A stretch of 64,000 bases of DNA. Source: Ianthella basta. Taxonomy: Eukaryota > Porifera > Demospongiae > Verongiida > Ianthellidae. The notes under the pieces are model-generated. The model worked only from the letters and a program-made list of their open reading frames with translations. It was not told the origin of the DNA and searched no databases. Positions 737-54,712 of the stretch are shown piece by piece. Numbering within the stretch: the first letter of the stretch is position 1; each line of letters opens with the position of its first letter. A program made the position numbers and the translations under genes. Location: contig OZ025874.1 of assembly GCA_964019415.1 (NCBI GenBank), positions 4,925,196-4,989,195 on the forward strand. Reading direction: 5' to 3'.

Positions 737-1944
737 AAATGGTATGAAGGAGCCATTTTTGTCAACACAAAGGATAGGCAGTTTGTCTTAGGAAGGTTTG
801 TACTACTTAAAATGAAATAAAAAATTTCGCTTCAGAGGCACTTTAATAGATGAGACAAATACTTATTAATAACGTGAAACTGGTATTTCCAACCCTTCTC
901 GACTACATTCTGTACTCCACATTCGATTGGGAAGCTGTTCAAGTTGACCTACTTGTCTCCAGCACCGGAGGCACCTTCTTAACTAGTTCTCCAGGCAGTT
1001 TTTCATGGTAGAAGTGTATTGAGCAATTGTCGCTCAAATCAACTGTTCCAGAAGCTGAAGCTAAGCCATTTCAATCTAAAACACCTAAAACAACTGTAGT
1101 CTGTTGACAGAAGTGCCTAAAGTGATGCTCCGTGCTCAGCGGGCGAAGAAAAGCCAATCGATCTGGCGTAAGATTACACCAATGTTGTGCCTCACTGATT
1201 TTGAGAAGAAAGTTCTTATGGCCACATTGTCGGCCATAATAGAGCTTCTTTTGACTCTGGATCCTTCGTTTCGGTGCTGCTGAATGTGTAAGGCATTTAA
1301 TCACCACCTGCCCATGGACCAAACTGCAGCCATCTTGGCAAGAATGACACTTTGAAGTCGAAGTGTGACAATCAATCAATTAGCCATTAGGGTACGAGTG
1401 TAGCAAGTCGCGGATGTCACGCAAGTGTACTGAATGATTCAAAGCCGGCTATAAAGGCCAAGCACAAGGACTTAAATAGACTGCCAAAATGGCCAGTTAG
1501 ACAAGCTAAAACCAGTTACAAATGACAGCAGATGAAGCTACACATCAAGTTGTCACAAACACAAGTTACACAGGGAATTCAAGTTACACTTGACAGCACA
1601 TAAGGTTGGATATATATGTCCACTACATGAGTAAAGATTGAAATTGCTTGTTATAAGTGTAGTGCCAGGGTTTCAAGCACCAAGGTAGTCTTCTGGTGGT
1701 CTCTCTGAAGCAGCGAAGTAGGATACACATTTGTCTTTACATTCAATTTCTTAAGCATTCATTGCTATAGCAGTGTGTGGGACAATGGTGTTGCTGAGCT
1801 ATCTAGTCTGAAGCGCTGTGAATGCTTCAAATGTGGTTGCCCTCCCTTGAGGTAAACAACCGTGCGCAGAAATGCATGGTAGGCCACCTAGAAAAGTGCA
1901 ATCGCACTTTAGTTATCATAAGCTCATAACTTTTGAATGAATAT
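737..1944. other. No gene recognised
   Basis: Mixed-frame sequence. One 102-codon minus ORF (1071-1379) has scattered Cys and His residues and a WCNLTPDRL segment, but no family I can name and no convincing splice context. No repeat or TIR is evident. Confidence 0.4.
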
Positions 1945-2590
1945 GGCGGATTGGTGGTTTTGAGTGCAATCCGCCAATATTTCTTCCGCCAAAATTTGTG
2001 CAATCATATAGTTTTCCTGTTTAACAAGGCTGGATGCGCCATGCCTATAGATTAATCATCAGCATGAAATTCACAACTGACAGCAGCGCGAGGACATTAC
2101 GTCCCCAAACAGCTTTGAACACTGGAGGTGGAAGAAGAGCGTGAGGAAGCCGAATTAAGGCAATCCAAAAATCGTTGTATATGCGGTTGCTGTGAAGACT
2201 GACGTTGAGATCATTGTCGGTAACTTACTTCGGCAGATTTCAGCAGCCTGTTCTCTGTTTCTGCGCTGGAGCGGTACAATTGTGTGTGAGGTCACAAGCT
2301 GCAGGCGAGCATCCGTAGATCTATCAAAAGGAAGCTTGAAAGTCCTTTGTACGTTGCAGCATTCATGGGAAAAGCTAAGGATTGAAACAAAAACAGTCCA
2401 AATACGGTCAAACAATAGCGCGTGTACTCCTCAGAGACGCTTCAGTAACCTAGCTCTGTTCGTCCGGATTAATTGATTAGCCATTTTGCTATGAGTATCA
2501 TTATGGCAACATTGTGCCAAACCGCCAAAGTAAATTCTGCCAAATACAGAAATTTCAGCAATCCGCCAAAATTTCCGGCCATACAGTGAC
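1945..2590. repeat. Candidate inverted-repeat DNA element
   Basis: The motif GGCGGATTG and its complement CAATCCGCC recur at both ends: a short inverted pair lies at about 1946-1977, and CAATCCGCC / GCCGCCAAA-type copies return at 2518-2575. This suggests a small DNA transposon with terminal inverted repeats about 0.6 kb apart. The overlapping ORFs at 2155-2476, on both strands, look like nothing I know. No target duplication could be fixed. Confidence 0.3.
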
Positions 2591-3729
2591 TACATCGTTT
2601 CATTACAATTTCGGCCATGTATTGGTCTTAGTGTACTTCTATGACTTCCAACTATTCCACTACTGAATTTCAGCAAAAAATGGTTTTTCCTGTGCGTGGG
2701 TGTAATGGGGGGAAGCAATAAAAGCCGAAAAGCCAGAATTGGTAACAAACAAAACAAAACGAAACAAAACTAAACAAAAAAAGCAAACCCTTTTCTGGTA
2801 TTGCGAATGGAGTGTGAGTGCTGGTATAGCTCATAGCATAAGGATCTGTGTGCACGTGCAGGTTGAGCTGAACTAAAGCAGTGATATATAATTTTGAACA
2901 GGAGCAATGTATGCACATTTGGTAAATGAAACACATGTGGCTGGGTAGCTAAGAATGTCTTCGCTAAGTGCTCTTATGTCTCTTCATCTTCCTCCGACAA
3001 TTTGGAGTTGAAACAGCTGCAAAGGAGAGTTCAGGAACTGCTTTTGTCGTTCTGCTGTGCGTCTTCACCTCATACTTAGAAGGTCTACAGCAGTAAGGCT
3101 GCCATGAATGTGCGTATGTAAGTAGCTAGCTAGTTACACTGGTCAACCCAGCTAAATTGCATGCATGCAGTGCAAATTGGCTAGCTACCAATAGCAATAG
3201 TAGCCATTACCTACATACTGTTCAGCAAATATACTTGATTTGTACACGATTTTGTGACATTCCTGTCCATTGCTGTGCAAAGGGGAAATGCCACCTCAGT
3301 GATGGGAACAATGGGGGGTCACCACCTCCCCTTTTGATCTCTTTTCTTGACTAGACTTTCTTTTTTCTTTTCAAATGACTGCATGTTTTTTTTATTTATT
3401 ATCCTATACTATTCTTATTAATTTAGTTTGCTCATAATATTATTCTTTCATTATGTGAAATTCAGATGGGTTTTGTGACAGGTACAGCCAAATAGATAAT
3501 AGGTAATAGATTTGTGTAGCTCTTCTTGCTCTGGTGATAAAAGTGATGAAGGGAATTGCAGAGTTAGCTATAGTATAGTATTACCACCAGTGAGGCCTAA
3601 GCTAAGGCAGGATGCTTCACCTAAAACGTAGTGAGTTAAGAGGCCTTACTGAGATATAAGTAAGTCATTCCAGATGTTAAGTATGATGACTTTCATGACC
3701 ACCCTGCTGCAAAACATCTGCCAGTATTG
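2591..3729. other. No gene recognised
   Basis: A-rich stretch near 2750 (repeated AAACAAAAC) and T-rich stretch near 3360-3450. I see no coding exon, TIR or tandem repeat. Confidence 0.4.
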
Positions 3730-3879
3730 ATAGGTCAGTTCATTGCAGTAAGCCACTGCAACGGCCAGGCCGGGCTAGGTAGAACAAGGGCTAATCATCA
3801 GATTTTACACCTACCAGCCTTCTACACTGTAGTGTCTCAGGAGGCTGGTAGGCGTAAAATCTGGTGATTAGCCTTTGTT
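3730..3879. mobile_element. 150-bp foldback insertion with 15-bp target duplication
   Basis: The 15-mer CATCTGCCAGTATTG occurs at 3715-3729 and again at 3880-3894. Between the copies lies 150 bp that ends in a hairpin: arm 3782-3822, a 17-nt loop, and arm 3840-3880, about 41 bp with few mismatches. A perfect 15-bp duplication points to insertion by target-primed reverse transcription or a staggered cut, rather than to a classic cut-and-paste element. The first 52 bp are outside the hairpin. Compare the hairpin insertions at 14276 and 28949. Confidence 0.6.
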
Positions 3880-4138
3880 CATCTGCCAGTATTGTCTCAA
3901 ACTTTGCAGGGACTTAATGCAAATCAGCAATTTAATTCAATGATTGGTACTGTACCAACTGATCGCATTTGTCAAAGGGACCAACCACTGTTGCATACAA
4001 TAGTGACTTTGTAGTTCACTTCTCTTGTGTACTGTGCATTGATGAGCACTGTACAGATGATAATAGAGCCTTGAGAATAGTAGTGCACATGCTTTCTGAT
4101 GTCATCTAATACCCTTTCACATGGACCAACATATGCGG

Positions 4139-4280
4139 TGTGAACCTGAATTCAGGACCACTATATGCGGCATGAGCCTGGATTCAGGACCACTATATGC
4201 AGCGTGAACCTGGATTCAGGACCACTATATGCGGGGTGAACCTGGATTCAGGACCACTATATGTGGAGTGAACCTGGATT
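4139..4280 (+). repeat. Four-copy ~31-bp tandem array
   Basis: About four units of 31-32 bp built on GAACCTGGATTCAGGACC followed by ACTATATGCGG, each differing by a few bases. It lies outside the Myb-like ORF at the left edge of the Harbinger element, where it may be part of the subterminal region. Confidence 0.75.
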
Positions 4281-4343
4281 GAACCTGGGTTAAAACTTTC
4301 ACATAAGACCCACATAAGCAGGGTGAACCTGGGTTAGGGAAGA

Positions 4344-4377
4344 GGGGTGAACCCTGCTCAGCAGTAGGGTTCACCCC
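4344..4377. repeat. Perfect 12-bp stem hairpin
   Basis: GGGGTGAACCCT at 4344-4355 and its exact complement at 4366-4377 flank a 10-nt loop. It contains the GTGAACC motif of the neighbouring tandem array. Confidence 0.8.
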
Positions 4378-4439
4378 ACTTCAAACGAGGGTAAAAGCAA
4401 GTTAAGATGGCTGACCATGGACGCGTGTGGAGTGACAGT

Positions 4440-5995
4440 TAAATAACAGCCCTGCTGGCAATTTGGGGGGAGGATGCTATACAGTCACAACTACTTGAAG
4501 CAGTAAGGAATGTTGTGCCTTTCAGGGAGATTGCTGAGCAGTTGCGAAGGCAAGGTTACAACGTGACTTCAAGCAGTGTTGAGAATAGATAAAAGGTTTG
4601 AAGAAGTATAAGGCAGTCGTTGACAGTCTCAGGCGCAGTGGAGTTGGTGCAGAATCAGATGATGACCTCAGCGAACTTGATATTAGGATCAATTTCAAGT
4701 AGTCCGCTGATATTCATGGGGTGTCGAGTCGAAGAGCACTACTTAACCCTCAATTGTTGATAGATATGTCTGATTTTACTGGTCAGTGTTTGGAGACTTC
4801 GACACCAACAGCTGATGACTCAGCAGGGGCGGCGGCAGAGGAGGGGCAGGGGGGGCTTGAGCCCCCCCACTTTTCACAGTGGGGGGGCTGAGCCCCCCTT
4901 CTCTGAAGCTCAGCCCTCCATAAATTTTGTAGTGAGATTAACACTATTCAGTTAAATCAGTGGTTGAGGAGTAAATTCAGCAAATCATGAGAAAGTTTAC
5001 CAGTTTTAAAGTACACTGACTGAAATCACTGGGTAGTACTTCCTACATCTGCCTCCGCCATTTAAAACACCATTTTGCCTGCCATTTTTGAACACATGGT
5101 GTTTGCAAAATGGCGAAACAACAAGCAACATTGGTTACTATTTGGTCAAAAGACAACTCAGTGAAGAGAAGAAGACAGGATAGTGCCACTGTAGAGTGTG
5201 CAGGCGTAGTTGAGGACGCTGCAGAAGATTTTCCAACCGAGGCAACTGAAATTCAGGCAGAATGTGACCCTAGGGCCCTGTGTGTTCAGGACAATGTTGT
5301 AGTAATGAGGAGATTGTTTTTCAGCCTAAAGATAAACCCACACTGATGACACTGGCTGCTAAGAAAAGAAATTTTCAACCGCAGTGGTACAAACAGTATC
5401 CCTGGCTGAGTGTTTGTACAAAAAATTGCAGAGTATATGTACCTTCCAAGATAGAGCCCCCCACTTTTTGGGAGCTGCCGCCGCCCCTGCTCAGGACAAT
5501 CCTCTTTGGCTGACCAATCAGTGGCATTGACACCAACCAGACTGCAGACGTTGATGACCAATTGGGGCCAAGGACACCTGCTACTGACAGTGTTGATCAG
5601 CCTGAGAGTGCCTCTGCTGCAACTGATGAGCAAGCCTCCATTAGCCAAATGGGCCAAGACCACCTGCTACTGACAGTGTTGATCAGCAGAGTGATCCCTA
5701 CACCAGCAATTGATGAGCAACACTCCACTACCCAAATATGGCAAAGGACACCTGCTACTGACACTTCCACAGCTGCAGCTGAGCAAACTTTGAGCTCCAC
5801 TACCCAACCTCGTGCCAAAAAGTGTAAAGCTAACAAAGTTAGAAAACACGGACAAGTCCAACAAAGCCATGATGGACACTTTTCATCAGGCACAGGACAA
5901 AAGCAGGCAAGAAGTGATAGAATTGGAGAGGCAGAGAATAGTGTGGAATAGACAGCAAGCACAGCAAGCACATGAGAAGGAGGAGTGCTAGATGA
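4440..5995 (+). pseudogene. Harbinger Myb/trihelix-like DNA-binding ORF, split by a hAT insertion
   Basis: Before the insertion the frame reads a helical stretch (EAVRNVVPFREIAEQL, then an SSVENR and KGLKKYKAVV run) typical of the Myb/SANT-like trihelix protein that PIF/Harbinger elements encode beside their transposase. It has an in-frame stop after the ENR. After the hAT insertion (4824-5489) the ORF continues as a long low-complexity Thr/Ser/Gln region (5562-5951) and ends with a charged ERQR... QQAHEKEE tail, also usual for this family. In intact elements this protein binds the transposon ends and helps the transposase enter the nucleus; here it is dead. Confidence 0.6.
4824..5489 (+). 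mobile_element. Nested hAT-type element, 666 bp, with 5-bp target duplication
   Basis: Terminal inverted repeats begin CAGGGGCGGCGGCAG at 4824 and end in the complement at 5489; CAGGGGCGG-type ends are typical of hAT transposons. CTCAG at 4819-4823 and at 5490-5494 is the likely target duplication (5 bp, shorter than the 8 bp of most hATs but known in some lineages). Inside, two frames (5110-5346 and 5280-5513) give the start of a hAT-type protein: an N-terminal QATLVTIW segment and, after a frameshift, the KRNFQPQWYKQYPWL motif that begins a TTF-type zinc finger. The catalytic core is missing, so the copy is non-autonomous. Confidence 0.7.
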
Positions 5996-6119
5996 CATTC
6001 ACATGAGACATGTTTTCTATGTTTTCGTCACAGCCAATGCCACAGCCATACTACCTGATGTTTGAGCCCATACTGCCACCTAGAGCTACAGCCCCATGCA
6101 CTTCACAAAGGTTGTGTAG

Positions 6120-7135
6120 AACACAACATGCAATGACAAGAGTTGGAACACTCTAGATGTCACCAACATTTCTTCTAATCAGGGACCTCCACCGTCCTTT
6201 TAACCTTCCAAAAGCATTCTCAGATACCACATGTGCACAACTTAAACAATAGTTGAAGTTTCTTCGCTTTCTGGTTATGCTAGTATAGAAGAATAGTTTC
6301 AGCAGCCATGGTTGGAGAAGGTAAGCAGGGTCTCCCACCATCATTAGAGGGACAGTAGTGTTGTCTAGTTAGGGAGGAGGTTAAAACTCTCACACTTGTT
6401 GTACAGTCTTAAGTTGGCCAGCACCCATACATCATGGACACTGCCTGGCCAGCCCACACAGATGTCCAAAAACTTGCATTCATGGTCCACCAACGCCTGC
6501 AGTAAGATAGAATGGTAGCCTTTCCAGTTGAAACAGTCCAGAGGATTTTCTTTGGAAGCAATGACCGGAATGTGGCTACCATCAATGGCGCTGAATCACT
6601 GAGGAAGGCCCCACATTGACAGAAAGCCATTCACAATCGACTGAAGACCTTGTCCTGCTGGAATCTTAATGTATTGGGTAGCAAGGAGCTCCACAATAGC
6701 ACTGCAAACATCGCACGTACACACATACGTACTGTCGGCAGTCTAACTTCAAACAAGTGACTGATTGTTCGACATTCAACAATTGCCCTGGCCTCCACAG
6801 GCATATGGCAACTCTTTGCTCAGGGGCGATGGTCATCTCACAGTGTGACACCTTCCAGATAAGGTTGCAACTCTTGACACAGAAAACGAAAGGTGGCTTT
6901 ATTCAGGTGAAAGTTTTGCTTCCACTCTTTGTCACTCCAATGTCCAGCAATGTCATCCTTGAATTTACGGTTCCTAGGCTTGACCCAAATGTGTTTTGCC
7001 TGGAGGCATGCAACAGAAGTGCAACAGCACAAGAAAAGGTAAAAAATGCCCGCTGTTCCCCCTGTGCTGCGATGAAATGAAGAAATCGTGATTTTCGTGC
7101 TCTTTCCCTGGACAGCAGTGAGCAACAACATGCCT
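6120..7135 (-). pseudogene. PIF/Harbinger transposase (DDE_Tnp_4) pseudogene
   Basis: Read on the minus strand from 7131 down, fragments in shifting frames follow the Harbinger transposase order: an N-terminal helical region (RNRKFKDDIAGHWSDKEW near 7010-6960, QELQPYLEG at 6850), an IAPEQRVAICLWR helix-turn-helix segment (6830-6780), the first acidic box (GAIDGSHIPVIASKENP in an adjacent frame near 6590-6540), the second box (a PGSVHD motif near 6450-6430), then GDPAYLLQPWL (6340-6305) and VVSENAFGRLKGRW (about 6230-6190) with the final glutamate. At least three frameshifts make it inactive. In a live element it would cut and join transposon ends. Confidence 0.75.
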
Positions 7136-7734
7136 CCCGTCTTCTACGCAGCCACAGCAAAGTGACAAGAACGAAAACACCAAACAGCCAGACTCTGAAC
7201 ACCATCTTGAACACTTTCACAATGTGTGTACTCAAGTTGTGACGTAATGACTGCAACACCATGTGAACAGAAACAGGGGTAGCTAAGCAGGGGTTTGGTA
7301 GCAATTGACCGCACTTAGGAATGTGCACTATCAGTGCAACGTGAACTGTACAAGAGCCCATTTTTCAGACTTGACCCTATTAAGGTTCAGATACCAGTTC
7401 AGATAAGAGCAGACTTCTACTCATGTACAGACTGTATATAGTCCAAACATTTCATAACTTGCCCTGAGAGGGGAAATTCAACAACTAAATTGGTACCTGA
7501 GGGGAGCCAAATGGTTGCTATTTTGGTTCTGGGGGCCAAATTCAGCATGACAGGGGACAAACATGTGGAAATTTAAAGAGGTATTGCAGTAGACAGCAAT
7601 AGTAGTGTCAAAGGCGTCTTCTTACATGATAGGTTGAACAACGGATGTTTCCCTACAAATGTGTATCAAAGTAAGTGGGAAAGCACTTACGCACAGCTTG
7701 GGTTCTACTGTGATTCAGTGTGCTACACCAGATT

Positions 7735-7840
7735 GAATCTTCAAATGGGAATTGATGAGCATATTCACGTGGCACAAATAATCAACAACAGAACATTTTG
7801 GCCCAGAAGGCCTTCTTCAGTTGTTACACTGAAAAACTAC
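7735..7840 (-). repeat. Degraded arm of the 28949-type hairpin element, with hammerhead-like core
   Basis: This segment shares TGGGAATTGATGAGCA and GTGGCACAA with both arms of the hairpin insertion at 28949-29142. On the minus strand it holds CTGAAGA (7820-7814), a GGCC/GGCC stem with a short loop, then AAAA in place of GAAA near 7796, so the putative ribozyme core is mutated. Only one arm is present. Confidence 0.5.
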
Positions 7841-7887
7841 AGAGAAAAGTGGCTTTGATTGAATGTTGCTCTGGGTTGAACTTGGCT

Positions 7888-8045
7888 TGTCTGACTCACT
7901 GACTGCAACAGCTTGCAGCCCATTGTGTGGCTGCTAATATAGCTTTTTATAGTGTATTGCACAGTACACAGAAAGACACACAGCTCTGGTGTGTGTAATT
8001 TTGACCAAATACACCTTACATAGGCACACAAACACATAAAATCCA
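7888..8045 (+). repeat. Dispersed repeat, copy 1 (second copy 41847-42000)
   Basis: CTCACTGACTGCAAC, GCCCATT, ATATAGCTTTTTATAGTGTA-type blocks and a following CACAC...CTCTG...TGTGT block are shared in the same order with 41847-42000. No coding content or terminal structure was seen. Confidence 0.5.
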
Positions 8046-8454
8046 AGCCTTCCAAAGATAGGTAGATTTTGCAGACATGAGCTTGCTTTGTGCTAGTGTG
8101 ATATGTTGCAATACAGTATTTTTCAGTCCATTACAGCTGTTCACACACACATCCACATGAATGAGAGCTGAGTAACGCAAATGTTAATGGGTTGATTAGT
8201 CTCAAAATGGCTGAGCTAAGTGGGAAACAACTTAGCACGTTTCCTTCCCAAACTGCAAACCACAGGAACATCTGATGTGTGAGGCTACCCTGTACATTAA
8301 CTTGACATAGTATTGCTTCGCGGGTTTTTAACTCTATGCAGGATTTTATTCCAATACCTATTGTGTAGAGAACAGCAAAAAACTGTATCATCACTACACA
8401 GGAAGTGCTACTGCACTCTCTGATGCAACTTGGATCTGTCAAAGAATTAGTCCA

Positions 8455-10134
8455 CTAGTTACTCTCATGACATAGCAGAAAAAGAAGAATAAGAAGATGA
8501 CAACCTAAAACAGGCATTTTGAAGCACATCGATTTGCTGGTGAAAATTGTTTGCTCTCTTTCTAATTTAAAGTCAGTATAGAGGAAAATCACATCTACCA
8601 TGGAATGTGCATTGCCATATTTCAACTCTGCAGGAATTCCTTTCTTACCAGTGTAAAGGAAAAGCAACTGAATGACCCTACATACTGTACGTAGTAATAT
8701 CCGTCCACACAACACTCCTTGCTTACCTGAACACTCAACCAAAGGAACTTGGTTAGACATCTCCACCTTTGCAGTAAATACAGCAGGGCGTACACTAGCA
8801 TCCACGACCATGTTGGAGCTCCAATACTGTCCATCACTTGTCTGAGGGTCACATGTCTTGTTAGAACCACTACATTTAGAGCTATTATGGTTCTGACACA
8901 TGGACAGGAGGCTGGAATTATCAAATGAGCTTGGAAATCCAGATGAGCCCACATCTGATGGCAGAGCTGTGCATTCACTAATGTCTGAAGCCTGCAGCAA
9001 TGAAATGCTAATGCTTACAACAGCAGTGATGTTGGTGTGAACACTGTGCATGGCAGATTGTCAGCTGTGTATATGTTTTACCTCTACTATGGCTGTGTCC
9101 ACGGAACTGCTGATATCTGAGCCATTACTTTCTTTTGCAGTGTGGCAACAGGGTGGTGAGTGGATTGAGGCAACAGGTACTGAAGTAGCTAGTGGAGAAG
9201 AGCTATTTTTTTCTGGTACTTTATCTAGTACGAGGCACTTTGCATTGGATATCAGACTTTCCTGCACATCCTTGTCTTCTGCTACAATGGGAGGGTTTGC
9301 ACTCAGAGCCCCCCAAATTGTTCCCAATGTCTCTTTTGGAATCGATACAGAGAGACCGTCTGACGCAGTGGATGTGGCATCAAGGCTAGAGAACCAAGGA
9401 TCCTGTTCTGCTGCAACTGAACAAGTTACAGCTGGCTGCAATGCACTGTTCTGTGTATTGCTGCTCAAGCAAACTTCTGTGAATTCCTTTTCTGCAGTGG
9501 AGAATGAGACAGCATGATGTGCATTTTGAATCGGCCCACATTGAATAAATGATGGAAATGTATTCTCTTCAATCCTGCCCTGCGGTGATGATCCTGCTAC
9601 AATTATTGCTGTTTCCACTACTCCACTGACGGTAGGCAAACCCTCCTCTTCTGTTTCAGAGCAGTGCTCTTCCCCTGTGAGAAGTGGCATGCATAATGGA
9701 AGCTCACTTGTACAACAACCTCTATGTGAGTCTCCCACCCCATTGCAAGCATAATCAAATCCGGAAGTAATGGAGGAGCGCAAAGAGTGGGAATGATTAG
9801 AAGCAGTGTCTTCAAGTTCAACAATTCTCCGCTTCTTTGAAGGTGGCTTGCTTCTCAGTTTATGATTGCCTGAATGTAAGTCTCCACTAGATGCACAGGC
9901 CAATGGCTTGAGATTTGCAAAAGTGGTATTGGTATTGTCAAACGCACTGTACGCAGGAAAAACCTGCTGGGCAACAGATGAAGCCTCCGATACTTCTGCG
10001 CCCTTTTCCACATTCATCTCTATTGGCAAAGAGCTACCAACATTTGTAGCTGTACCTGTTGTTACGGAAAGCCTGGGAATTTTCACCCACAAGGGCTTGG
10101 GTGGTCGTCCACGCCTACCTTTAAATACAGACAT
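8455..10134 (-). CDS. Unrecognised AT-hook protein, at least two exons
   Basis: The first exon runs from an ATG at 10134 and is open for about 350 codons, the longest frame in this part of the window. It begins with an AT-hook (GRRGRPPKP, residues 6-14), followed by basic KPPSKKRR and then a long Ser/Thr/Glu-rich, low-structure region. A donor (GAG/GTAAAACA, exon end 9080) joins in frame to an acceptor near 8990 (TGCTGCAG/GCTTCAGAC), and that second exon ends at another strong donor (TGTTCAG/GTAAGCAAG) near 8727, so the gene continues downstream; a possible third exon starts near 8628. AT-hooks bind the minor groove of AT-rich DNA, so a nuclear role is likely. The ATG could instead lie just before a splice acceptor (AAAG at 10120), making this an internal exon. 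Confidence 0.55.
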
Positions 10135-13734: not shown

Positions 13735-13850
13735 TAGTCTGGATCGCTAGACCGTCCCAATCACGCCCAGGGCGCTTAGCAGGGAAGGAAATTGTCTATA
13801 AATAGCGGGGATAGCGAATAGTTCACACCTTTTCCGACCAATCAGATGCG
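13735..13850 (+). mobile_element. Solo left end of the RecQ/DUF6589 element family
   Basis: TAGTCTGG, CGCTAGACCGTCCC, GCGCTTAG, ATAGCG, TAGTTCACACCTT and CGACCAATCAGATGC occur in the same order and spacing as at the left terminus of the complete element (49120-49230). The copy stops at a decayed LINE near 13850; no right end is nearby. Confidence 0.75.
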
Positions 13851-49110: not shown

Positions 49111-49119
49111 GTGACCAGT

Positions 49120-49208
49120 TAGTCTGGCTCGCTAGACCGTCCCGTAAGCGCCGGTAGGCGTGGAAGGGAAGGGACGGTCTAGCGGCAATAGCGATTAGTT
49201 CACACCTT
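49120..49208 (+). repeat. Left terminal inverted repeat with internal palindrome
   Basis: GCTAGACCGTCCC at 49130-49142 and its complement GGGACGGTCTAGC at 49171-49183 form a stem within the TIR, so each end can fold into a hairpin. The rest (GGCAATAGCGATTAGTT, CACACCTT) is shared with the right end. A CCAAT motif (ACCAATCAGATG) follows just inside at about 49213. Confidence 0.85.
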
Positions 49209-49259
49209 CTCGACCAATCAGATGCCTTAGCACCGAATCGGTGCAACTGTATTCATGAA

Positions 49260-50930
49260 GTGTTAAACAGGCTACCGGCAAAATGGAGCGGAAGGTGTGA
49301 CAACCGAATGCCATCGTTTCCAGGATCAGTTGAATTCGTGCAAGCAGCAAGTAAGACAAGGGACCACCGTGAAACCAGACGAGAGCCACCGTTTCCAGGA
49401 TCCGGTGATTTCGCGCAAGGACTCAAGCCAATGGACGTTAATCGCTATCGCTTCGAGGACGCTGTGAAGTTCGCGCTTGGAAGCTTACAGAAAACATACT
49501 TGCAGCTGTCTGCGCACCAAAAGGAAGCCCTGAAGAGCATCCTCAGTGGAAAAGACACTTTCGTTTGTCTTCCCACGGGTCATGGTAAATCTATCATTTT
49601 CGAGTGCTTGCCGTACTGCTGGGATTTCTTGCGCACTGACAGTGCTCCGTCGTCAGAACAAGTAGTGAAGCCATCGTCGGTATTGGTTGTGTCACCACTG
49701 ATTTCACTGATGAACAGTCAGGTGGGTGAGCTGCACAAGCGAAATCAGAGTGCTGTCAGACTGTCACAGGATATTTCCAAAGATGATGAGCTGAAATTGT
49801 TGAATGGCTCCATTCGTTACGTATTTGCTTCTCCAGAGGCTCTCGACGAGGGACGGTGGAAGTCTGTTCTGTTGAAACCCAGCTTCAGCTTAGCAATTAA
49901 AGCTGTGTTTTGTGATGAAGCTCATTGTGTTGAAGTCTGGGGTGGTGGGGTATTTCCTTTTCGCCAGAGCTACTCCAAACTGGCCTCTCTTCAGTCATTT
50001 TTCACATCAACAGTGCCCTTTGTGGCTCTAACAGCCACAGCATCTACTTCTACACGGTTGAAGATCTGCAAGTCGCTCAATATGATTGAGCCTGTCATCA
50101 TCACTACTTCGCCTAATCGCATCAATCTACGCTACAGCGTAATCCATGTGGAAGAAAGCATTGTCAGTCGGTTCACCTGGCTGCTTGAAGAACTGAGAAT
50201 GGAACAAAGCAATGCCACAAGAACTGTTGTGTTTTGTCGCTCCATTGCAAGCTGTGCCAGCTTGTATCGCCTGTTCGATTTTACTCTCAAGGATGAGGGA
50301 TATGTTCCCAGAGGTGTCATTAATGTCAAAAATGCACTATTTGGCATGTTCCATTCCAAAATCACTGATTATGAGCGAAGTGCATTATTGGAGTCATTTT
50401 CGAAGCCAGATGGAGTTTGTCGTATTTTATTCAGTACCATTGCCTTTGGAATGGGCCTCAACATTCCAAACATCTACAGAGTAATACACGATGGCCCAGC
50501 TGAGAGCGTGGATCATTATGTGCAAGAAAGTGGCAGAGGGGGTCGTGATGGACATCTATGCGAAGTTGTACTGTACCTGTACTCAGGGTCAACCAGAGGT
50601 AAAATCAGCTCTGAGATGAAGATGTATTGCAAGAACAAGAAATGTTGCCGTAGAATTCAGTTGATGGAGTGCTTTCCAGGGCACATTGAATTTCCCCAGC
50701 CAGCGCATATGTGTTGTGATATATGTGCCACTGAGTGTCTCTGCAATTGCACTTGTGGAATATGCCATTGCACTATGGAGAACTCACCATGCAGTGAGTG
50801 TTGCACATGTGTCAACAGATGTACACATGTCCCCACTAGCACTATTACATCAGAGGAGGGAGCTTCACAACTAATGTACGAATCAACTTCAGAATCGGAT
50901 GAGGAAAGCCCCAAATCAGATTCTTCCTGA
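49260..50930 (+). CDS. RecQ-type DEAH helicase of the transposon, cysteine-rich tail
   Basis: Single exon, up to 556 residues; an in-frame Met at residue 58 (49431) may be the true start, since residues 20-55 are a duplicated FPGSVEF/FPGSGDF segment. Helicase motifs in order: QLSAHQKEAL (83-92), Walker A PTGHGKS (105-111), SPLISLMNSQV, DEAHCVEVWG with the aromatic-rich loop (219-240), ALTATAS (256-262), VVFCRS, then ILFSTIAFGMGLNIPN and QESGRGGRDG (422-431). A RecQ zinc-binding domain follows (C457, C462, C463, C471, C485, C486, C489), then a second Cys cluster (CLCNCTCGICHC, 493-504). There is no winged helix or HRDC domain. It would unwind DNA with 3'-5' polarity by family; a role in transposition is inferred from its place inside the TIRs. 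Confidence 0.9.
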   Translation: MLNRLPAKWSGRCDNRMPSFPGSVEFVQAASKTRDHRETRREPPFPGSGDFAQGLKPMDVNRYRFEDAVKFALGSLQKTYLQLSAHQKEALKSILSGKDTFVCLPTGHGKSIIFECLPYCWDFLRTDSAPSSEQVVKPSSVLVVSPLISLMNSQVGELHKRNQSAVRLSQDISKDDELKLLNGSIRYVFASPEALDEGRWKSVLLKPSFSLAIKAVFCDEAHCVEVWGGGVFPFRQSYSKLASLQSFFTSTVPFVALTATASTSTRLKICKSLNMIEPVIITTSPNRINLRYSVIHVEESIVSRFTWLLEELRMEQSNATRTVVFCRSIASCASLYRLFDFTLKDEGYVPRGVINVKNALFGMFHSKITDYERSALLESFSKPDGVCRILFSTIAFGMGLNIPNIYRVIHDGPAESVDHYVQESGRGGRDGHLCEVVLYLYSGSTRGKISSEMKMYCKNKKCCRRIQLMECFPGHIEFPQPAHMCCDICATECLCNCTCGICHCTMENSPCSECCTCVNRCTHVPTSTITSEEGASQLMYESTSESDEESPKSDSS

Positions 50931-51013
50931 CAAAAATAATATAATGCACATGTAACAGTTGCACTATATTTGTTAATATAGATACATTATAATTGTCAAT
51001 TTATTATGTCAGG

Positions 51014-54000
51014 TCACGTTCCTTTCCTTTTCAAGTGCTCTGTGTACTTCATTTTCAGCGCAAATTCTTCCAGCTTATTGTCCATCCACTTTGTGAACCG
51101 CTGCCATCTTTCATCTTGCCGTATTTCACTGTACAAATGACTACTTATACCTTTGAAGTGTGCGTATTGCCTTCCAGGAATGTGCTTGCATGCTTTGGTC
51201 GCCATGAGTTGCTGGTATATCGTCTGCCTGTCCATGCTGTCAGATGGTACAACATGATAACCACTATCCTGTATGATGTTCAACTGCTTGTCCACCTGAG
51301 CGATGCATGCTTCCACAGCAGGAGAGGCATGTGCAGTCTTCTGTACACTTGATTCAGTGAGGTGTGGTGAAAAGGAGCTAATGTCATCTTTGAATGTGCG
51401 ATTCATATGCTCCAAGTGCAAGTCAAGGGGTTTGTTACCGCCTACTCTCCCTCGTGGATTACATGTCCGATTCCAAGTCAATTCATGAGCCTGCTTCTCA
51501 TTGAGGGCAATCTTGACATCACTTAGGAGATGCATGGCCTCCAGAGCATATTTGTTCTTTCCTGCCTGTTTGAAAAGCACAAGGAGGAATTTCCACAGCC
51601 GGATCATGCGCCCACCATCACCTTCTCGAATTGCATCCTCCATACCCCAAGCTAGCAAGCCCATTCCAAGAACTTTGGACGAGTAGCTGTTCAAGTCATC
51701 ATGGTGATGAGGAGTCCTCAGGCTATCATTAGGGCACAGGACTATGGTGTCCACAACATTGGATGCCAATTGGGTCAGGCAGTCCATTCTCTCCTTTGAT
51801 GTTGCAGGTAGATCGCACTTCAGGACAGTGCGAATGTCTGCAGATTCCAGGGACTCAATGTTGCTCATGGTTGCGAAGACAGCCAAGATCATTGCTTCCA
51901 GAACAACCGACAAGAAGCTCTGGCATGCATGCAAGTCCTTCTTAGGGTCCTGCACAACATTTCTTCGGTCAATCAGTGTGCGCAGCTGATACAGTGTGCA
52001 TTGATCTCGAGATGATGATGTGGAGTACAGTGTATCCCAAATGACCTGATAATAGGCTTGAAGAGCATGCCAATCTTCAACTTTTGCTATCAATCCTTCC
52101 AGCCTTTGGGAAGGTTTTGGTGCTTGCAAACGAGCCATCTTAGCACCTCGTATCCGCTCACATGTGAGCTGGTCACCTCCAACAAACACCGGTTTCAATC
52201 CATCTGCTGATCCACGCTGTGGCACGTACTTGTGGAGTGTCTCTAATATCTCGATCATGTCCTCTGTCACATTTTCATTCTTCAGCAGAACACCTAATGG
52301 CACCTGCAAGAAAGGTATTTACAAGGTAAATATACAATTGACCATGAATAATTACACTTTTTATATATTAAACTTAGACTCTGTAGCTATTATACTATAT
52401 TAAATAATACAATGTTATTGCAATACCATTGTTATTATTGCATACTAGTGTATAGGACATAAAACTCACAATCTCACTGGCTTTGGTCATTTCATGTGAA
52501 AACGTATGGAGAATGTGTTGTGGTACAAAATCTTGGAATATTTGCAGGCAAGGGACATACTGCACCAAAACTCTGGCAACGAGAACAAGGAATTCCTTGC
52601 GCAACAAGCTGCAGTCATTCTCAGTTGGCACAAAGAGGGAATGGTCTGCTTGCAGAAAGCTGCCGACAGGCTTTTCATCTGGTAGATCTGCATATAAAGT
52701 CAGATGGTATGAAATTTGAACAGCTATACATCATGAGGACAAGAGCATATAATATGGGCTTACCTGCATGGACTCTGTTCTTAATAGCATATACTTGAAA
52801 CCAATGGAAGGTTTTGGATTTCCGGTCTGCCGTCATGTACCTAGGTTTCTGGTACACATCCACATTGTCGCCAATGAGTTGAAATGTCACCGCACCTATT
52901 TACACAAAAGGATATATAGGAAGCTGAATGTATTCCTGTATGAGTATATACAATTAAGTTGCAATCACATATATTGTACAATGTCATGTAAAGAGATTTT
53001 TCTATACGCACTAGCTTGACAATTTAATCGGTAAATGATTGTCCATGGCCATGGATTGAAAACAACACTTAACACCACTACCTGTTAATGGTCATGGCAT
53101 GAGTCATTGAGCAGTGCACTACTCAATAGTGCATGAATTATAATGACCAGACATCATGTGTGTAGTCATGGTACATACAGTGCAGACATGTATGCATAGT
53201 TTATACTAACCATCTGCCATCCATTCAATGACTTTATGATCGAATCCTGATCCCAGGTCATCCAGCTTTCGATAGAGTGAACGGGGTGAAATCGCCAGAT
53301 TGAGATGGTTCAAGCGTTCTATTGTCTATCATAGCAAAAGGAACACCACCATGTGATCAGTACAGTTGCAAGCAAATGTGTTGAGAAGCACACAGTGCAC
53401 TCACCATGGTTGATGAATTGCCATGCCAGAGTATCAAGGACAGCAGGTGTTGGATTGCAGCCATGTGCATATTCCTTTCTTTCAAAAGAGCTGATGCAGC
53501 TAGCACGCATGTAGAAGCAGTGCTTGAAGGTGTCTTCCTCTTGTACTTGGTACTTAGTGATGTGGCAGCTGATTTGAGCACTGCCCAGAGAGTAGGAGAG
53601 TTTTCCTTCAGTTCCCTTTCATAACTGTCCCAGTTGAACTCTGCGAAATCTGTAATTGACATTGTCCTAAACACAGTGTGATTCTTTGAGCACAACTTAC
53701 TGCATTCATGATCAATGATGGATTCAAGATCTCCCAGTTCAACTTTTGGCCTCAAGTGTGGTAGTGCTCTGGTGCCAGAACGGGGTATTGGGATTCTGGA
53801 TGGTCTTTCCGCCGACTGTGTGTTATTCACAGGGCTTCTGGTACGAGGCTGCAGCTGATGTGTGTGATGCACTATCTGCTCACTTTCTGTGCTCACTGAC
53901 GAGAGGGTGCTCACACCTGGCATTGGAGATGGAAAGAGTGCTCGGGCAAACCTTGTGTCTACTTTTTCACTGCTCTCCTTTGAGCGCTTAGCGGCGGGAG

Positions 54001-54325
54001 ATCGAGCAGCCGACGATGGAGAGTGTTGCACTGGACTAGAAAGCATACTTACGCGCTTTGATAGTGAAAAGAAAGTCTTCGCAGTTGCAAGCTTGTCGCG
54101 CAGTGCACGTTTCCTCGCTTCCACATCCTCTTCCATCTTCTTCAGCGCGAGTACCCATCTATAGCAGCTACCACACACGTAAGAAGGACATCCTTCCGCG
54201 CTGATGTCCAGCTCGTGGGCAAGTGCAAGTCCAACGGTACTGAGCTGGCCGGTGCTCAACACTAACGAATACTTTCTGTCCAACGATCCACAACAAACAC
54301 GACAGAAACGCTTGTACTTCTCCAT
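51014..54325 (-). CDS. Five-exon DUF6589-like protein, probable transposase (891 aa)
   Basis: Exons: 54325-53405, 53325-53211, 52895-52764, 52687-52470, 52303-51014 (stop). Every border is AG/GT and the phases close, giving 891 residues. N terminus: FCRVCCGS and YVCGSCYRW, two C-x2-C pairs about 45 residues apart, like a ZAD-type zinc finger. A long disordered Ser/Pro region follows. The C-terminal half matches DUF6589 as I know it: IGDNVDV (D355, D358), VGGDQLTCERIRG (D506), EDWHALQ (D539), REGDGGRMIRLW (D691) and PLDLHLEHMN (D756, E760). The regular acidic residues suggest an RNase H-fold transposase; that is inference. Start chosen at MEKYKRF since the upstream in-frame extension begins with GTG. 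AATAAA lies about 15 bp past the stop. Confidence 0.85.
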
Positions 54326-54420
54326 GCGGATTCGCGTGCACACACTGCTCTAGCAAAACGTTCTGCTGCTTTGTAGCAAACCACAGGAATGTCTGGCGCG
54401 AGGTGTGAATCTGATAATTC

Positions 54421-54510
54421 AAAGGTGTTAACTAATCGCTATTGCCGCTAGACCGTCCCTCCCCTCGTCGCCCCAAGGCGCTTATTGGGACGGTCTAGCG
54501 AGCCAGACTA
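54421..54510 (-). repeat. Right terminal inverted repeat
   Basis: Complement of the left end over about 90 bp, including both halves of the inner palindrome; differences are concentrated in the palindrome loop (about 54462-54487). Confidence 0.85.
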
Positions 54511-54518
54511 GTGACCAG

Positions 54519-54624
54519 TAGCCTCGTACCCAGTCCCTATTTCCATTCCGACTTCCGCTCGGGAGGGAAATATTTCCCTCCCGAGCGGAAGTCGGAATGG
54601 AAATAGGGATTGGGTACGAGGCTA
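54519..54624. mobile_element. 106-bp near-perfect palindromic MITE
   Basis: TAGCCTCGTACCCAGTCCCT ... to the centre near 54571, then its complement with one mismatch, ending CGAGGCTA. AGTGACCAG at 54510-54518 and 54625-54633 is a 9-bp duplication. It sits in the same CCAGTGA repeat, directly beside the right end of the RecQ/DUF6589 element. Confidence 0.8.
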
Positions 54625-54664: not shown

Positions 54665-54712
54665 TAGTCTGGGTTGCTAGACCGTCCCATCTAAACGCCG
54701 GGCGTTTAGACT
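54665..54712 (+). mobile_element. Second solo end of the RecQ/DUF6589 family
   Basis: TAGTCTGGGTTGCTAGACCG followed by TCCC matches the first 24 bp of the TIR, then CTAAACGCCGGGCGTTTAG, a different palindrome centre. Confidence 0.6.

Follow-up and report, generated by a model that had tools for sequence, protein, structure and literature searches.

A complete DNA transposon of 5391 bp occupies positions 49120-54510 of the window, a 64,000-nucleotide stretch of the genome of the sponge Ianthella basta (assembly GCA_964019415.1, contig OZ025874.1, positions 4,925,196 to 4,989,195 of the forward strand). The element carries one gene for a RecQ-type helicase and one for a protein of the Pfam family DUF6589 (PF20231), and we consider it very likely to be an intact, autonomous transposon of the AcademH type, in which the DUF6589 protein would act as a DDE-type transposase and the helicase as a constant accessory. 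This reading is based on the observed borders of the element, the 9-bp target duplications, one site found unoccupied, the two identical copies at separate places, short elements sharing the ends and the conserved pairing of the two genes. The features of the element and its flanks are given below in order of position.

49111-49119, no strand: target site duplication, left copy GTGACCAGT, same as 54511-54519
49120-49208, plus strand: left terminal inverted repeat, begins TAGTCTGG
49431-50930, plus strand: RecQ-type helicase gene, single exon, 499 amino acids (aa) from the ATG at 49431
51014-52303, minus strand: DUF6589 exon 5 and stop, most of the PF20231 domain
52470-52687, minus strand: DUF6589 exon 4, from its junctions and alignment with relatives
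52764-52895, minus strand: DUF6589 exon 3, with GDNVD at residues 354-358 and the candidate first catalytic D
53211-53325, minus strand: DUF6589 exon 2, from its junctions and alignment with relatives
53405-54325, minus strand: DUF6589 exon 1, with the N-terminal C-x2-C ... C-x2-C segment
54422-54510, minus strand: right terminal inverted repeat, pairs with the left end
54511-54519, no strand: target site duplication, right copy GTGACCAGT, 0/9 mismatches against the left copy

The left and right terminal inverted repeats (TIRs) align over 89-90 bp with 87.8% identity and two gaps. Complementarity is complete in the outermost 24 bases and 95% in an inner 44-base arm, the two being separated by a variable stretch. 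Duplication lengths of 7, 8, 10 and 11 bp gave no match at the window element. Joining the flanks of the transposon gave a 106-bp foldback element complete with its own 9-bp duplication AGTGACCAG, which provides an independent check on the borders; the transposon inserted at the left edge of the foldback element. Apart from the helicase and DUF6589 genes, the element contains no open frame longer than 120 aa. The initial annotation of this DNA had described an intact two-gene transposon with TIRs of about 90 bp and a perfect 9-bp duplication, and the measured ends, the duplication without mismatch and an identical copy elsewhere in the genome bear this out. Within the terminal repeats there is an inner inverted pair, GCTAGACCGTCCC / GGGACGGTCTAGC, at window positions 49130-49143 and 49171-49184, which could form a hairpin or serve as two binding sites. 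More sequences that start with TAGTCTGG and resemble the transposon end were seen at 13735-13831 and 54665-54699 of the window; each is probably a lone end of a related short element.

The search for further full copies, 9-bp duplications and empty sites that the initial annotation had suggested was productive. A second full copy, L009, lies on contig C16; it matches the window element at 5391 of 5391 bases and is flanked by its own 9-bp duplication, TTATACGTG, which differs from that of the window copy, so the element moved very recently. A genome search with the left end gave at least 40 matches (40 of 631 candidates scored), all 40 of which were examined in two sets of 15 and 18 stretches and in the window. 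Among the elements with both ends, 24 of 28 had perfect 9-bp duplications (11/13 in a first set and 13/15 in a second, in which 15 of 18 loci had both ends). Of the two imperfect cases in the second set, one had a 10-bp duplication and the other (L037) a 9-bp repeat plus two extra bases, which was counted as neither 9 nor 10 bp. Six loci stood outside this count, L015, L016 and L017 for want of a usable second end and L028, L029 and L030 because no partner end lay in the 3-kb stretch; L031 and L032 have one duplication in common and perhaps represent a single event. One insertion site was found unoccupied: when the flanks of L011 are joined, they align to a related repeat in L005 over 206 of 208 bases and gap-free across the junction. 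On the right side of L013, 14 bases are the same as those beside L011 while the left flanks differ, which suggests a rearrangement between copies or an effect of assembly.

Other copies were damaged or reduced. L012 is a near-full copy with three segments 98.9-99.3% identical to the window element, broken by 1-bp and 814-bp insertions in the helicase gene and by an 89-bp deletion in exon 5. It carries 13 nonsynonymous and 6 synonymous substitutions in the DUF6589 gene and 5 and 4, respectively, in the helicase gene, where a nonsynonymous fraction of 0.72 is expected without selection; these counts are too few for any statement on selection. L015, L016 and L017 are partial copies, L010, L011, L013 and L014 are internally deleted forms of 767-974 bp, and the remaining short elements (730-2215 bp) have mainly their ends in common with the window element.

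The DUF6589 gene is predicted to consist of five exons on the minus strand. All four introns are GT-AG and the frame closes at 891 codons, as the initial annotation had proposed for a convergent five-exon gene. Alternative acceptors for exon 4 would yield 888 or 903 codons, but 891 codons are favored over 903 by the alignment with relatives, which read through the same joins, and the splice between exons 3 and 4 is supported because the corresponding stretch is one continuous match in a divergent family (L056/L057). The protein has no other domain above cut-off than PF20231, which exon 5 by itself matched with an E value of 7.8e-53; this exon contains the motifs GGDQLT (D506), VEDWH (D539), KYALEAM (E717) and DLHLEHMNR. 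The cysteine segment of exon 1 showed a weak likeness to zf-AD (E 0.02; 15.6 bits, under the Pfam cut-off of 28). The named relatives found by protein search are from the sponge Ephydatia and the sea urchin Lytechinus; an alignment-based protein search listed 12 proteins, 11 with an Ephydatia name or Em identifier and one nameless. No DUF6589 relative was found in one scan of viral contigs. Pfam scans of four window frames and four relatives listed no MULE or other named transposase domain, and the scan of the four window open frames listed no nuclease domain.

The helicase gene runs tail to tail with the DUF6589 gene, the end of which lies 83 bp from the helicase stop. Its open frame on the plus strand extends from stop to stop over 49158-50930, and the first in-frame ATGs are at 49308 (540 aa) and 49431 (499 aa). 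The start at 49431 fits, since 499 aa falls within the 464-504 aa span of 12 listed relatives (at least 46% identity and at least 86% query coverage). The initial annotation was right about a single open frame with the core motifs, although its length of 556 codons was not reproduced from either ATG. Just before the likely start, at window positions 49305-49419, a 40-bp stretch occurs twice, 75 bp apart, 83% identical and in frame with that start. The protein has the Pfam domains DEAD and Helicase_C followed by a cysteine-rich tail, and it matched the NCBIfam RecQ model TIGR00614 with an E value of 5e-53 (180.5 bits, under the curated cut-off of 219.8). The closest relatives by sequence in the PDB are RecQ (1oyw, 4tmu), BLM and WRN. 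The features by which we class it as RecQ-type are present, namely the DEAH core, motif VI as QESGR(A/G)GRDG and cysteines past the core; RecQ zinc-binding, WH and HRDC domains were not listed in the Pfam scan of the helicase. Eight motif stretches, from Walker A to the post-core cysteines, are common to most of 17 listed relatives (46-66% identical), except for truncated rows and a few single changes, and the cysteine-rich tail is likewise common to most.

Whole-genome searches gave 77 matches to exon 5 of the DUF6589 gene and at least 90 matches to the helicase (86 of 9710 candidates scored). Among the matches listed, a helicase cluster lay no more than 6 kb away at 23 of the 24 DUF6589 loci with at least 200 matched residues, which argues that the helicase belongs to the element, as the initial annotation had it. 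If the 66 helicase clusters among these matches were placed randomly, a neighboring helicase would be expected at about 0.4% of loci. The 24 loci, sorted by eye, make up about 13-14 groups and are therefore not 24 independent cases. The helicase was convergent on the 3' side at 18 of the 23 paired loci, on the same strand behind at 3 and on the same strand in front at 2. At 9 of 10 loci the helicase was directly visible in the sequence, and at the tenth, L052, the whole-genome search placed it about 3.5 kb away on the 5' side. Shorter DUF6589 fragments had a helicase near in 6 of 22 cases among the matches listed.

The same gene layout was found in the distant family L056/L057, whose exon 5 pieces are 43% and 27% identical to the window element. 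Its inverted ends are about 100 bp long and start with TAGTCTCG, and L057 has a perfect 9-bp duplication, GGTCTGGCG. Judged from these comparisons, the pairing of DUF6589 and helicase is old and specific. L057 is also a nested case: at 1474-8981, the DUF6589 element with GGTCTGGCG starts about 60 bp inside outer related ends that have a 9-bp duplication of their own, GTCCGTTAC.

Conserved residues were compared in 21 rows, comprising 14 genome stretches (with two families represented by three rows each), 6 proteins and the window. The motifs GD.[LV]T and EH.N were present in 21/21 rows and the E after Y in 20/21. GDN[VI]D was present in 10/10 rows that cover its exon; the other rows begin later, with matches from residue 402 on, and P0002 begins past the motif. 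In the 891-aa protein the candidate catalytic acids are thus D355 (or D358), D506 and E717, with a DD(210)E spacing, and a D-W-H motif stands behind the second D here and in most other rows. We infer from these residues a D, D, E pattern that would fit a DDE transposase whose last acid follows a long insertion. The conservation of this acidic triad among divergent copies argues that DUF6589 is very probably the transposase. The relative from Lytechinus pictus, P0003, has a C2H2 zinc finger inside its DUF6589 domain at about residues 530-553 (a weak Pfam match below cut-off), and P0003 may have lost its activity or been repurposed.

The catalytic role of the triad, the fold, the binding to DNA, the step of the helicase and excision are the parts of the model that we infer. 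In this model the five-exon DUF6589 protein would be a DDE-type nuclease with D355 (or D358), D506 and E717 as its catalytic acids, and would bind the 89-bp ends, possibly via its N-terminal Cys2-Cys2 segment. A duplication of this length implies that the two strands of the target are cut 9 bp apart; the ends would be joined to target DNA at such cuts and repair of the gaps would produce the duplication. The helicase from the convergent gene would probably unwind either the ends or the gap left by strand transfer. A broader proposal, which we advance tentatively and hold to be somewhat less probable than its negation, is that the DUF6589 proteins as a whole are a single superfamily of transposases, mobile only with a dedicated RecQ-type helicase. 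Transposition by these DDE enzymes would then depend on the helicase, which would be required to unwind the ends or the strand-transfer intermediate and would set the 9-bp stagger, and the partnership would have outlasted at least three arrangements of the genes (convergent, and on the same strand either behind or in front) as the proteins diverged to about 30% identity.

Several observations weigh against the identification of the element as an AcademH-type transposon moved by its DUF6589 protein. Fold searches with models of low confidence (predicted local distance difference test scores, pLDDT, of 48 and 62) gave no match to the RNase H fold, so that the claim of the initial annotation that DUF6589 is a transposase class is backed by the conserved triad but not by the fold, and P0003 has H in place of the candidate catalytic E. 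One DUF6589 locus (C2:5203733-5205233) had no helicase within 6 kb among the matches listed, gene order deviates in two groups, and at least 10 helicase clusters of 200 aa or more lack a DUF6589 neighbor within that distance; some of these clusters may be the host's own RecQ genes. Two of the 13 elements in the first set (L013 and L022, counted as misses) lack a matching duplication and that of L056 is imperfect only. Finally, the assignment to AcademH is drawn from the published description of that lineage.

AcademH is cited as a helicase-encoding lineage of the Academ transposons (PMC10045372; PMC10799480), with duplications of 9 or 10 bp, compared to 3 or 4 bp in AcademX, which has a nuclease in place of the helicase (PMC10045372). 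Its hosts are animals and fungi according to the title of Kojima 2020 (Mob DNA 11:15) as cited (PMC10045372, PMC10799480, PMC12210899), and Academ is counted among the DDD/E superfamilies (PMC9587614). In the available parts of these sources, AcademH resembles the element described here in encoding a helicase and in its 9- or 10-bp duplications, and the likeness is drawn from that published description; gene layout and DUF6589 are unmentioned in the same parts. AcademX is alike in belonging to the Academ superfamily (PMC10045372, as far as its available text goes), but differs in its 3-4 bp duplications and nuclease from the 9 bp and helicase found here. Because the combination of a helicase with a 9-10 bp duplication has already been described for AcademH, the reading of the element as an undescribed mobile system is, as far as these two features go, not supported, which is where we part from the initial annotation. 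The same agreement, together with animals among the hosts in the cited title, makes it unlikely that the element represents an undescribed superfamily, that is, a DUF6589 transposase class apart from Academ which gained a RecQ helicase independently and whose 9-bp duplications are coincidental. In favor of such a superfamily, the comparison of DUF6589 with Academ is by description only, RecQ helicases are also present in another superfamily (in KolobokH and one red-algal Kolobok, according to the available part of PMC9587614), and no publication was found that names DUF6589 or PF20231 as a transposase, which is weak evidence as most subscription journals and Repbase lay outside the scope of the search. 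The equation of the Pfam family DUF6589 with the transposase of AcademH-type elements may therefore be new in print.

The absence of fold support for an RNase H domain would also suit a DUF6589 protein that is a passenger or DNA-binding partner in an element moved by the helicase or another protein. We regard this as improbable: the element has no third open frame above 120 aa, the acidic triad is conserved across deep divergence, and RecQ helicases are not known to produce 9-bp duplications. A Mutator-like (MuDR) element with a captured helicase is more doubtful still. MuDR elements typically have long inverted ends and 9-bp duplications, as the present element does, but here the coding unit is DUF6589, and Pfam scans of four window frames and four relatives gave no MULE match, very remote kinship aside. 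Inverted ends, 9-bp duplications and gene content likewise misfit a Helitron or Maverick origin, which was rejected. A KolobokH element is so improbable as to be negligible: Kolobok elements duplicate TTAA, as opposed to the 9 bp of varying sequence found here. KolobokH does resemble the window element in being a DNA transposon that encodes a RecQ helicase (PMC9587614, in its available part).

With the AcademH-type reading, DUF6589, a domain of unknown function, can be given a specific role, probably that of a transposase, and annotators could recognize DUF6589 genes and their helicase neighbors as transposon genes rather than host genes. Beyond membership in the AcademH type, the analysis adds the assignment of DUF6589 and a measure of how strongly the helicase is paired with it. 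The two identical and apparently intact copies provide material for asking why a transposon carries its own RecQ helicase.

The foldback element that received the transposon is the remaining feature of this region.

54519-54624, no strand: foldback element TAGCCTCG...CGAGGCTA, near-perfect, 106 bp, from the joined transposon flanks

At these window positions the element starts with TAGCCTCGTACCC. It has relatives elsewhere in the genome, where a search in which 40 of 219 candidates were scored gave at least 83 matches (both strands of the same places counted and the window's own included). The foldback ends resemble GTACGAGACTA, which is found near the end of the part common to the DUF6589 loci L058 and L059, and by this resemblance the foldback element may be a tiny element carried along by a related family.
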